Positions 33,530 to 38,003 of a DNA stretch of 64,000 nt are shown here, piece after piece. Below the pieces are notes generated by a model, which worked only from the letters and a program-made list of their open reading frames with translations, did no database searches and was not told the origin of the DNA. The stretch comes from Sulfurivermis fontis (GTDB taxonomy: Bacteria; Pseudomonadota; Gammaproteobacteria; Thiohalomonadales; Thiohalomonadaceae), in the NCBI RefSeq assembly GCF_004001245.1, contig NZ_AP018724.1, forward strand, positions 2,100,501 to 2,164,500. Reading direction: 5' to 3'. Every line of letters begins with the position of its first letter. Positions within the stretch are counted from its first letter, which is position 1. The translations under genes and the position numbers were made by a program.

Positions 33530-33558
33530 TGGGCTGTCCTCCTTGATTAACGGCGATA

Positions 33559-33656
33559 CAAGTTTCAAGTGACAAGTGACAAGTGACAAGTGACAAGTGA
33601 CAAGTGACAAGTGACAAGTGACAAGTGACAAGTGACAAGTGACAAGTGACAAGTTG
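33559..33656. repeat. Tandem array of the heptamer CAAGTGA (family D copy 2)
   Basis: Twelve perfect CAAGTGA units occupy 33566-33649, preceded by the variant CAAGTTT and followed by a partial unit. An oppositely oriented group (ACTTGTAACTTGTCACTTGC, 33723-33742, then CTTGTAACTGG) lies just before the hynL stop, so the whole 33559-33757 block is an inverted repeat. It fills the hupE-hynL gap, and no gene is seen there. On the minus strand it also creates a spurious upstream extension of hupE. Confidence 0.92.
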
Positions 33657-33757: not shown

Positions 33758-35524
<1,767 letters not shown>

Positions 35525-35541
35525 AAAGAAATCCTCAGTCA

Positions 35542-35682
35542 GTCCGCCAATGGACGCAAATAAACGCGAATAGCTATTGAGCTAGCCACCATGACATGGC
35601 TCATCCGGTGGGCGGCAGCACCGCTATCTCGGGCCCATGAACCTGCTCCTTGATTTGCGTACATTCGCGTTCATTTGCGGAC
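35542..35682. repeat. Inverted-repeat element, family B copy 2
   Basis: Arms at 35542-35571 and 35652-35682 are inverted copies with about 6 mismatches (ATTCGCGTTCATTTGCGGAC in the right arm). It fills the gap between isp2 and hynL and is related to 12857-12964. No ORF is present. Confidence 0.72.
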
Positions 35683-35701
35683 CCGACAAGATATCTGACG
35701 T

Positions 35702-36973
35702 TCATTTACCGGCCTCCTGTTCCACCAGATGCTCGGCCACCAGTTCGGTCAGGCCGACCACCTTGACGTTCATGTTGTAGTGCTCCAAGCCTTCCTCCAA
35801 GACGATGCGGCAGTTGGCGCAGGCGGTCACCATGGTGTCCACGCCCAGCGCATCGAGCTGGGCCTTCTTGCGCTTGAAGGCCTGCAGGCGCAACGCCTCG
35901 GCACGGTCATTGGCACTGACGCCGCCACCACCGCCGCAACACCAGTTCATCACGCCGTGGTCCGGCATCTCGCGGAAATCGCTCGCCACCTCGCCCAGCA
36001 GCACCCGCGGCGGCTGCACCACACCACCGCGGCGCACGATCTGGCAGGGGTCGTGGAAGGTCAGCGCCGCATCCTCCTTGCCGGAGGTCTTGAGACGCCC
36101 GCTGCGGCGCAACTCATCGAGCAGTTCGAGGATATGCACCACCTGGAACTGGTAGGGCCGGCCGATGAGATTGGGACCTTCCCAGCGCAACGCGGTGAAG
36201 GCATGGCCGCATTCCGGGCTGATCACGTTCTTCACCTGCAATTTTTCCGCCGCGGTGACGATGCGCGCGACAATCTCCCGGGCAATGTCAGAGGCGCCGA
36301 TTTGGATGCCGCTGTTGGTGGCCTCGAAGGCCTCCGATGAAAGCGTCCAGCTCACGCCGGCCTGATGGAAGATGCGCGCCAGGGCACCGAGGTATTCCGG
36401 GAAGTTGATGATCTCCATGGACGACAGCAGCGCCATGTAGTCGGCACCCTGCACGTCAATCGGAATGCTTAGCCCGGTCTCCGCCTCCTGGGCGCGGATC
36501 TGCGCCTGCAGGGCCTGCAATTTCACACCCATCGGGCTGCCCAGCTCGATGGTGCGCTTGGTGGCACCGATGACGCCCTCCGGTGCATGGCCGGCGACGG
36601 CCATGCCTTCGCGCATCTTGCGCACCATGTAGGTGATGTCGTTGCCCACCGGGCAGACCATGGAGCAGCGGCCGCACAGGGTGCAGCTGTCGTACACCAG
36701 CTCGCTCCAGCTTTTCAGTTCCTCGTCGCTCACCGGCTTGCTCAGGCCGAGCAGGCGTCCGACACGCCCGGTCAGGGTGTACTCCTGCTGCCACAGGCGG
36801 CGCAACGGCTCCAGCTTGTGGATGGGCGTGTATTTTGGGTCACCGGTCTCGGTATAGAACAGGCAGGCATCGGCGCACATGCCGCAATGCACGCAACTGG
36901 AGAAGAAGCTGGCGATGGGGGCATCCATCACCTCGCGGAAGGCATTCAAGCCTTTCTCAAGTGTCGCACTCAT
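35702..36973 (-). CDS. isp2: Isp2: heterodisulfide reductase subunit D-like iron-sulfur protein
   Basis: The 423-residue protein has two ferredoxin-type [4Fe-4S] motifs (SCVHCGMCADACLFY near residue 26 and SCTLCGRCSMVCPVG near 95) and a C-terminal cysteine-rich CCG region (HDPCQIVRRGG, MNWCCGGGGGVSA and VTACANCRIVLEEG). It resembles HdrD/DsrK and should carry electrons with Isp1 at the cytoplasmic face of the membrane. Its ATG overlaps the stop of the repeat-built spacer ORF (ATGA), with GGAGGTGG upstream. In related hydrogenases Isp1 and Isp2 are needed for electron flow but not for enzyme assembly. Confidence 0.94.
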   Translation of the reverse strand: MSATLEKGLNAFREVMDAPIASFFSSCVHCGMCADACLFYTETGDPKYTPIHKLEPLRRLWQQEYTLTGRVGRLLGLSKPVSDEELKSWSELVYDSCTLCGRCSMVCPVGNDITYMVRKMREGMAVAGHAPEGVIGATKRTIELGSPMGVKLQALQAQIRAQEAETGLSIPIDVQGADYMALLSSMEIINFPEYLGALARIFHQAGVSWTLSSEAFEATNSGIQIGASDIAREIVARIVTAAEKLQVKNVISPECGHAFTALRWEGPNLIGRPYQFQVVHILELLDELRRSGRLKTSGKEDAALTFHDPCQIVRRGGVVQPPRVLLGEVASDFREMPDHGVMNWCCGGGGGVSANDRAEALRLQAFKRKKAQLDALGVDTMVTACANCRIVLEEGLEHYNMNVKVVGLTELVAEHLVEQEAGK

Positions 36974-37347
36974 GACGCCACCTCCGTTTCAAACTGCGTT
37001 TTTAGGGTGTGCAAAGGAGCGTTAGCGATGTGCCCACCCTCGGCGCCCAGGGTGGGCACGCTGCGCTTTGCCCACCCTACACATTTGCGCATCCCCGCTA
37101 CGCGGGGCCCCTGCTTACTGCTCATGACGCCACCTCCGCGCCAACCTGCCGGCGACTTGCTCCGTGCCTGTCGGTGGCCGGCGTCATTCGCGGACGTGCG
37201 CATCCCCGCTACGCGGGGCCCCTGCTTACTGCTCATGACGCCACCTCCGCTCCAACCTGCCGGCGACTTGCTCCGCGCCTGTCGGTGGCCGGCGTCATTC
37301 GCGGACGTGCGCATCCCCGCTACGCGGGGCCCCTGCTTACTGCTCAT
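36970..37347 (-). CDS. Repeat-built spacer ORF between isp1 and isp2
   Basis: This 125-codon ORF starts at the ATG overlapping the isp1 stop (ATGA) and ends in a TGA overlapping the isp2 start (ATGA). It is two full 37-residue units beginning MSSKQGPRVAGMR, a third partial unit, then a segment (GWAKRSVPTLGAEGGHIANA) that is a translation of a dispersed hairpin repeat. The composition (Arg/Gly/Ser-rich, no hydrophobic core) does not look like a folded protein. It may have no protein function but could keep ribosomes moving from isp1 to isp2. Translation is unproven. Confidence 0.4.
   Translation of the reverse strand: MSSKQGPRVAGMRTSANDAGHRQARSKSPAGWSGGGVMSSKQGPRVAGMRTSANDAGHRQARSKSPAGWRGGGVMSSKQGPRVAGMRKCVGWAKRSVPTLGAEGGHIANAPLHTLKTQFETEVAS
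37030..37059. repeat. Dispersed hairpin repeat (GTGCCCACCCT palindrome)
   Basis: GTGCCCACCCT and AGGGTGGGCAC form a perfect 11-bp stem with an 8-base loop, followed by CTGCGCTTTGCCCACCCTAC. This type of sequence is widespread between genes in proteobacteria. A related palindrome (CGTAGGGTGC...GCACCCTACG) is at 41651-41677 inside repeat A copy 3. Confidence 0.65.
37090..37347. repeat. 111-bp tandem repeat between isp1 and isp2
   Basis: The unit beginning CATCCCCGCTACGCGGGGCC starts at 37090, 37201 and 37312, so the period is exactly 111 bp (37 codons). The two full units differ at only a few bases. The third is truncated where it meets the isp1 stop. Each unit carries, on the minus strand, GGAGG or GGTGG followed by GTCATGAGC, a copy of the isp1/isp2 junction with its start codon, plus the palindrome CCCCGC-TAC-GCGGGG. 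Confidence 0.9.
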
Positions 37348-38003
37348 GACGCCACCCCCTTGCGCGCGGCGATGTCGCCGTTGTACCAGCGGGCGATGAA
37401 CAGGGTGAAGGTGTGGGTGAGCTTGGTGAAGGGGAATACCACCAGCAGCAGTTCGACGGACAGGATGTGCAGCGCCAGCAGCAGGGTGTAGTCGAGCAGC
37501 AGGTGATGGTAGGCCATGTACCCGGTGAGCAGCGGCAGGAAGGTCACGGTCCAGGCCAGATAGTCGCCGAAGCCGGACAGAAACCGCTTCACCGGGTCCA
37601 TCAGCCGGTGCACCAGGGCGACGATGAGGGCGATCAGGGTGATCACCGTCACCAGGTCGACCAGCGGTGTCGGCAGCGCCGGCCAGCTCAGGCCGGTGAG
37701 CGAGCGGATCAGCTCGATGTGCGGCAGCAGGAACAGCAGCACGACGAACAGGCCGATGTGGAACACGAAGCCGGCGACGATGGTGAGCCCGGAGCGGCGC
37801 CAGGTATCGGCATGGGGCAATGAGCGGGTAACGATGGTACGCCAGCCCGATCCCGGCGTCGGGCTGCGCGGCACAGCCAGATCGCGCTTGCGCCCCAGGC
37901 TGTAGACCTCGATGAGGCGCAGCGTCATGCCGAACAGGAAGATGACGGCGGCAATGACCAGCCCCGGCCCGCGCGCCCATAGCAGCAACTCCATGGCACT
38001 CAT
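37344..38003 (-). CDS. isp1: Isp1: cytochrome b-type membrane protein of the hydrogenase
   Basis: The 219-residue protein starts at ATG 38003 (GGAG 7 bp upstream, 1 bp after hynS); the longer frame overlaps hynS. It has five hydrophobic segments (GLVIAAVIFLFGMTLRLIEV, GFVFHIGLFVVLLFLLPHIE, LVTVITLIALIVALVHRLMD, WTVTFLPLLTGYMAYHHLLL, HILSVELLLVVFPFTKLTHT) with His residues in several of them, resembling the NarI/DsrM family that binds two b haems. It should pass electrons between the hydrogenase and quinones or Isp2. Its stop overlaps the spacer ORF start. Confidence 0.92.
   Translation of the reverse strand: MSAMELLLWARGPGLVIAAVIFLFGMTLRLIEVYSLGRKRDLAVPRSPTPGSGWRTIVTRSLPHADTWRRSGLTIVAGFVFHIGLFVVLLFLLPHIELIRSLTGLSWPALPTPLVDLVTVITLIALIVALVHRLMDPVKRFLSGFGDYLAWTVTFLPLLTGYMAYHHLLLDYTLLLALHILSVELLLVVFPFTKLTHTFTLFIARWYNGDIAARKGVAS

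Follow-up and report, generated by a model that had tools for sequence, protein, structure and literature searches.

ATGA overlaps are thought to tie together the translation of two genes. At the locus studied here, such an overlap is found at both ends of a spacer that holds a tandem repeat. In the window, i.e., the whole stretch of 64,000 nucleotides of Sulfurivermis fontis DNA that was analysed, the hydrogenase genes isp1 and isp2 are separated by a 125-codon open reading frame (ORF) that overlaps both genes by ATGA. The genes follow the order small subunit, isp1, isp2, large subunit, which is that of hynS-isp1-isp2-hynL of Thiocapsa (PMC3325256). Based on the comparisons below, the array probably consists of copies of a non-autonomous mobile element of approximately 110 bp that acts as a relay cistron at operon start codons.

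Layout of the array

Tandem Repeats Finder detected a period of 111 bp (2.4 copies, 98% matches, score 528) at 37086-37356, and reading of the minus strand bore out the 111-bp repeat, the 125-codon spacer ORF and both ATGA overlaps described in the original prediction. The period given there was correct, but the register, with unit starts at 37090, 37201, and 37312, followed the plus strand; the natural start of each unit is its ATG on the minus strand. Read in this way, two intact units of 111 bp (37347-37237 and 37236-37126) with two mismatches between them are followed by a partial third copy beginning at 37125, and all three are read as a single frame. The features are:

37344-38003, minus strand: isp1, membrane subunit gene, 219 aa (translation; tblastn relatives), its stop TGA lying within the ATGA at 37347-37344
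36970-37347, minus strand: spacer ORF, 125 codons, in ATGA overlap with isp1 and with isp2
37237-37347, minus strand: element unit 1, 111 bp, with ATG at the left and the Shine-Dalgarno sequence GGAGG at the right end
37126-37236, minus strand: element unit 2, 111 bp, two differences from unit 1
36974-37125, minus strand: element unit 3, approximately the first 40 nt of the core, a dispersed hairpin and the usual right end GGAGGTGGCGTC
37003-37079, minus strand: GTAGGGTGGGC...GCCCACCCT, dispersed hairpin repeat within unit 3, recognised by its other copies in the genome
36974-36985, minus strand: right end of the array, GGAGGTGGCGTC, which is the Shine-Dalgarno region of isp2
35702-36973, minus strand: isp2, DsrK/HmcF-like iron-sulphur subunit gene, 423 aa (NCBIfam DsrK, TmcB, and HmcF below cut-off; orthologues)

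The 111-bp unit was confined to this single locus within the closed, one-contig genome of 3.25 Mb. Further copies of the hairpin within unit 3 were present elsewhere in the same genome, in agreement with the earlier proposal that a dispersed hairpin had been joined to the spacer. As had also been proposed, each copy carried its own ATG and Shine-Dalgarno sequence. The end of isp1 together with ATGAG was repeated at the right end of every unit, and no NCBIfam or Pfam match was obtained for the spacer ORF. The array itself likely arose by tandem amplification of a unit once it was present. An assembly artefact was ruled out by the closed genome and by the tandem copies that unrelated genomes carry at this junction.

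Two other repeats were noted in the operon. The stretch immediately downstream of hynL (33558-33654) contained approximately 14 copies of the 7-bp sequence ACAAGTG (96% matches, Tandem Repeats Finder), for which phase variation could be conceivable if it lies in an open frame. Between isp2 and hynL (35520-35700) lay a GTCCGCCAATGGACGCAAATAAACGCGAAT / ATTCGCGTTCATTTGCGGAC-type inverted repeat that looks, by eye, like a dispersed one.

The isp1/isp2 junction in relatives

A plain isp1/isp2 ATGA overlap was found at approximately 50 of the 93 junctions compared, including that of a member of the same genus (G001) with an empty site and an isp2 91% identical to that of the window. Because relatives as close as this have the plain overlap, the spacer is an insertion, and the earlier view that isp1 and isp2 once overlapped directly is upheld, together with the retention of ATGA overlaps and frame through the insertion. 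Another member of the genus (G003) had a 224-bp insert, the first 77 bp or so of which matched the window unit at 86%. The two further close relatives had a 188-bp insert carrying another repeat (G002) and isp1 and isp2 without overlap (G004).

The same junction was occupied in unrelated beta- and gammaproteobacteria by one to three units of 110 or 111 bp, starting with ATGAGCAGNRAGCAGGGGCCCCGC or a near variant, so the variation in unit number that the original prediction proposed to look for does occur between species; the tuning of Isp1:Isp2 ratios suggested there would be a hypothetical consequence. All isp1/isp2 inserts longer than 20 nt that kept the ATGA of isp1 formed unbroken ATGA chains. 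This included core-less inserts at six loci (L064, L081, L083, L114, L126, and L135), which were open and had ATGA overlaps at both ends; some of these may be eroded units.

Immediately upstream of isp2, four of these loci (L064, L083, L114, and L126) carried unrelated dispersed palindromes, e.g., CGCAGAGACGCGGAGACGCAGAG or GGTAGGATGGGTGAAGCG, likewise open and with ATGA at both ends. It seems that the isp1/isp2 junction is an insertion hotspot or that such palindromes are themselves eroded units. At L184, the element was followed by a short in-frame (GVMNS)n repeat, another expandable stretch in the spacer.

A dispersed family at operon junctions

With a covariance model built on the 68-nt core, the element was also recovered from different loci in further genomes, most of which had one to a few loci. 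With a wider model, 9 of 274 genomes drawn from across the class proved to carry the element, as did 45 of 150 genomes in the family to which the Gallionella-labelled genome G057 belongs. In total, 117 matches in 92 loci were read, their neighbours being named via Pfam or, for metX/metW and nuoB, from translations; copies that related genomes share at a junction do not count as independent events. The junctions occupied were isp1/isp2, nuoA/nuoB, metX/metW, dusB/fis, murG/murC, rmlB/rmlA, thyA/folA, rnfB/rnfC, hsdM/rhuM-like, gntR/PEP-mutase family gene, RNB-domain gene/tonB, and ABC ATPase/next gene, together with the start of sdhA; at least eleven of the operon junctions are thus other than isp1/isp2. 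The gene-junction copies read were in sense orientation. In addition, in-frame copies lay within the coding sequences of prlC (two sites) and dapC.

At metX/metW, as at isp1/isp2, the same locus was found both filled and empty, some twenty genomes having the plain ATGA overlap and others the element, as expected of a MITE or other non-autonomous element. In-frame copies in unrelated genes (prlC, dapC) and the frame kept at junctions resemble the behaviour of Rickettsia palindromic elements (RPE). The family and its filled and empty sites are read directly from the genomes, and from these we infer a dispersed element that is presumably mobile.

This distribution bears on the origin of the unit. 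According to the original prediction, the isp1/isp2 junction itself had been duplicated and amplified in frame, and the repetition of the isp1 end and ATGAG at the right end of each unit fits that account. A right end resembling the target is, however, seen everywhere in the family, and the 68-nt core occurs at many unrelated junctions elsewhere as well as at isp1/isp2 of the same-genus genome G003. We therefore regard duplication of the junction as highly improbable.

Two groups of copies stood out in their surroundings. In L174 and L175, the element followed an extra truncated copy of the sdhA start, and in L174 the element and the sdhA start were tandemly repeated, as if the beginning of the gene had been duplicated by the insertion. 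Four loci (L178, L241, L242, and L243) carried an in-frame element at one site in prlC, immediately preceding the part of the oligopeptidase PrlC that holds the HEFGH active site.

Retention of frame and of ATGA overlaps

Except for some degenerate copies, each copy had an ATG at its start and a Shine-Dalgarno sequence at its end. Single units measured 110 or 113 bp, i.e., 2 mod 3, and an ORF that opens in the first ATGA therefore stops in the next ATGA. Inner units followed the same arithmetic: those of 111 bp continued the frame and those of 110 bp gave a second coupled ORF. Across all junctions, 49 loci had a long upstream ORF ending in the ATGA of the element; at 43 of them, the first copy gave an unbroken chain of coupled ORFs to the next gene, and the starts at some of the six exceptions may be misplaced. 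For comparison, 40% of random 37-codon stretches with this composition are open, before the 1-in-3 requirement for frame.

At nuoA/nuoB, the nuoA stop lay 7 nt earlier, and 11 of 12 copies that kept the ATG ran on in frame into nuoB, with an overlap of 11 nt; among the copies without ATG, none of nine did so. A second, nested palindromic repeat of 57 bp (19 codons, peptide ARAEGSLRSNGAPTGLLLAG), present in L229, L231, L233, L235, L236, L237, L121, and L259, was also frame-keeping. With overlap and frame retained at both ends, the downstream gene may stay coupled to the upstream gene via the element, the ORF of which would then be translated. A group I or II intron or another spliced element is judged improbable as an explanation, the unit being too short and the strict keeping of frame arguing for translation.

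Conservation of the DNA rather than of the peptide

One explanation for a persistently open spacer is a conserved microprotein or a linker subunit of the hydrogenase. An open frame was always present at isp1/isp2 and the N-terminal sequence MSxxQGPRxAGM was recurrent, as this would predict. However, mean entropy over core positions 1-50 was equal at codon positions 1, 2, and 3 (0.36, 0.33, and 0.33, respectively), and no family match was obtained. Furthermore, seven loci (L157, L168, L215, L217, L227, L230, and L234) had a loop one base shorter, which placed the DNA following the hairpin in another frame: LRGCERPR replaced AAGMRAS, the length was still 110 or 113 bp and the chain was unbroken. 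As these copies switch frame and nevertheless keep their length, it is length and openness that are kept and not the peptide. Judged from these alignments, the conserved entity is the DNA. A full-length ORF conserved as a protein, which would have spoken against the original prediction, was thus not seen, and we give a conserved microprotein or hydrogenase subunit scarcely any credence.

Three helices and site-matched segments

The alignments strongly support a three-helix fold consisting of the left flank paired with a segment X, an internal hairpin, and a segment Y paired with the unit's right end. In the window, the parts are:

37280-37347, minus strand: conserved 68-nt core of unit 1 (covariance models R1/R2)
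37169-37236, minus strand: conserved 68-nt core of unit 2 (covariance models)
37347-37353, minus strand: left flank (end of isp1 and the A of ATG), partner of X
37315-37329, minus strand: internal hairpin P2 of unit 1, CCCCGC-GTA-GCGGGG (covariation)
37291-37297, minus strand: segment X in unit 1, TGACGCC, the left flank in reverse complement
37284-37289, minus strand: segment Y of unit 1, GCCACC, partner of the right end of the unit
37240-37245, minus strand: right-end segment R of unit 1, GGTGGC, overlapping the Shine-Dalgarno sequence and pairing with Y

The internal hairpin, CCCCGC-NNN-GCGGGG in general form, covaried. In an alignment of 28 sequences, covariation of the three helices was 0.378, compared to 0.176 ± 0.013 when shuffled and at most 0.123 when the pairing was slid by 1-3 columns, and both sides had changed in 12 of 19 helix pairs; these counts are inflated by related rows and by the choice of intact copies, and the slid controls share that relatedness. 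Wobble pairs in the hairpin were of the G.T type in 13 cells and of the A.C type in 1, which points to constraint on the sense strand. In P1, the two types were nearly equal (G.T 11, A.C 8).

X is a 7-nt segment (core positions 51-57). Its reverse complement consists of the 6 nt that precede the element plus the first base of the element, and X changes with the site: TGACGCC for GGCGTC/A, TAATCTC for GAGATT/A, TGCTGCC for GGCAGC/A, and TGCCGTT for AACGGC/A (the slash marks the insertion point). Over 14 junction types, the number of pairs formed by X, out of 7, was 6.19 with its own flank vs. 5.26 with the flanks of others, and none of 2000 permutations gave a value as high; at positions -2 to -6, the values were 4.35 and 3.41, respectively.

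Y (6 nt) paired with the unit's right end at the position of the Shine-Dalgarno sequence, e.g., GCCACC/GGTGGC in the window, GTTGCC/GGCAAC in L096, and GATGCC/GGCATC in L177. Over 10 junction types this gave p ~0.002, a value that comes from a second attempt anchored at the Shine-Dalgarno GG and is less clean than that for X, an earlier fixed-register test having been weakened by the varying X-Y spacing and anchor. The alignment-based covariation count backs this result. Pairing of Y with the left flank was not significant (p = 0.46).

X also matched its flank within prlC, where there is no start codon to mask, and at the prlC site shared between species the flank/X pairs changed together (A-T,A-T / G-C,G-C / C-G,G-C). 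These matches and compensatory changes within a coding sequence argue that the pairing of X has a role or origin beyond translation. Some X pairing was also retained by nuo and fis copies that are degenerate and lack the ATG.

X and Y could be guides for the insertion of single-stranded DNA in the style of IS200/IS605, the ORF being a tolerated passenger that selection on the operon keeps open. The geometry resembles that of IS608 (PMC5934647), with the left cleavage site in the flank, the right one inside the right end, and each paired with a guide. The match of X to the left flank at 14 junction types and inside prlC, and that of Y to the right end and not to the left flank, are as such guides would require. 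IS608 guides are, however, located 5' of each hairpin, 4 nt long and constant, whereas here both segments are 3' of one hairpin, 6-7 nt long and variable per copy. No transposase accompanied the element, Y1_Tnp being missing from the three carriers G064, G057, and G421, and the compensatory changes at the shared prlC site suggest upkeep after insertion. Insertion guides of this kind are a serious possibility that we nevertheless hold to be somewhat doubtful.

The complementarity of X and flank could instead be mutational, with template switching (quasi-palindrome correction) copying the flank into X or the reverse. This would account for matches at every site, including coding sequence, for the compensatory changes in prlC and for the nearly equal G.T and A.C cells in P1. 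On its own, it leaves the Y/right-end pairing, the near-constant X-Y spacing and the restriction to start codons unexplained, and we consider it quite unlikely as the whole explanation.

Proposed working of the element

In the relay reading, which we favour, the element enters in sense direction at or just before operon start codons, most often at ATGA overlaps. A ribosome finishing isp1 at the first ATGA would restart on the ATG of the element, for which the old start region in the upstream gene serves, and would translate the 37-codon unit, or several units as one ORF, stopping at the second ATGA. There, isp2 would be restarted behind the new Shine-Dalgarno sequence that the element supplies for the downstream gene. 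By pairing with this sequence, Y would hide the isp2 start in the mRNA until a ribosome passes through the element, so that the incoming strong Shine-Dalgarno sequence would leave isp2 coupled, with coupling enforced rather than lost. The weak point of this reading is X, which may have acted as an insertion guide or may be kept matched by template switching.

The repeat family thus enters ATGA overlaps in operons of essential functions and core metabolism and is apparently kept for the coupling parts that it brings: a start codon, an open frame of the right length, a Shine-Dalgarno sequence and a second ATGA. The filled and empty sites at many junctions amount to a natural, replicated experiment on translational coupling, and the site-matching segments pose the question of whether base pairing guides insertion or forms a switch of translation. 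A more speculative proposal, to which we would give rather low odds, is a class of elements that find operon start codons via changeable per-copy guides (X for the target, Y for their own right end) and survive by rebuilding a coupled cistron. If true, guide-based targeting of start codons would constitute a new, compact and programmable insertion system.

Comparison with known systems

Searches of Rfam 15 returned no match near the gathering score (the best was a chance microRNA hit, E = 1.5), blastn of phage and plasmid collections gave no match to the element, and no such element was found in the open-licence literature. As far as these sources go, the element of approximately 110 bp is previously undescribed. 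No relatives of isp2 were found in viral contigs, and neither a mobilising enzyme nor an autonomous partner was found. The Y1 transposase was rejected as mobiliser, having no clear association with carriers of the element; a mobilising enzyme may have existed in the past.

Repetitive extragenic palindromes (REPs) are defined as palindromes of 20-40 bp, tagged at one end by an unpaired GTAG or CGTC and present in many copies per genome (PMC3733652). The element differs in having a core of 68 nt that starts with ATGAGCAG, one 6-bp hairpin, and one to few loci per genome. RPE and intragenic REPs are likewise small palindromic repeats, found in frame within genes and in intergenic regions; a match between repeat and flank is not described for them in PMC3733652, in contrast to the flank-matching segments here. 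Further differences are the core of 68 nt containing a single short hairpin, start codons as insertion sites, the carried Shine-Dalgarno sequence and the few loci per genome. The enterobacterial units RU-1, RU-2, and RU-3 are also MITE-like mobile units, of 103-168 bp, ORF-bearing and sometimes fused to genes, and the abstract and outline of that work mention neither targeting of stop/start overlaps nor a coupling relay (PMC2759123).

With IS200/IS605 elements such as IS608 (PMC5934647), the element shares segments that pair with the left flank and the right end. It lacks guides 5' of the hairpin and an HUH Y1 transposase, and has instead longer segments variable per copy, on the other side of the hairpin, and a built-in start codon and Shine-Dalgarno sequence. 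Finally, in termination-reinitiation coupling at ATGA, the same overlap is used for the passage of ribosomes from gene to gene (PMC6728339); it is known there for gene pairs, whereas here an inserted repeat appears to uphold it on either side.
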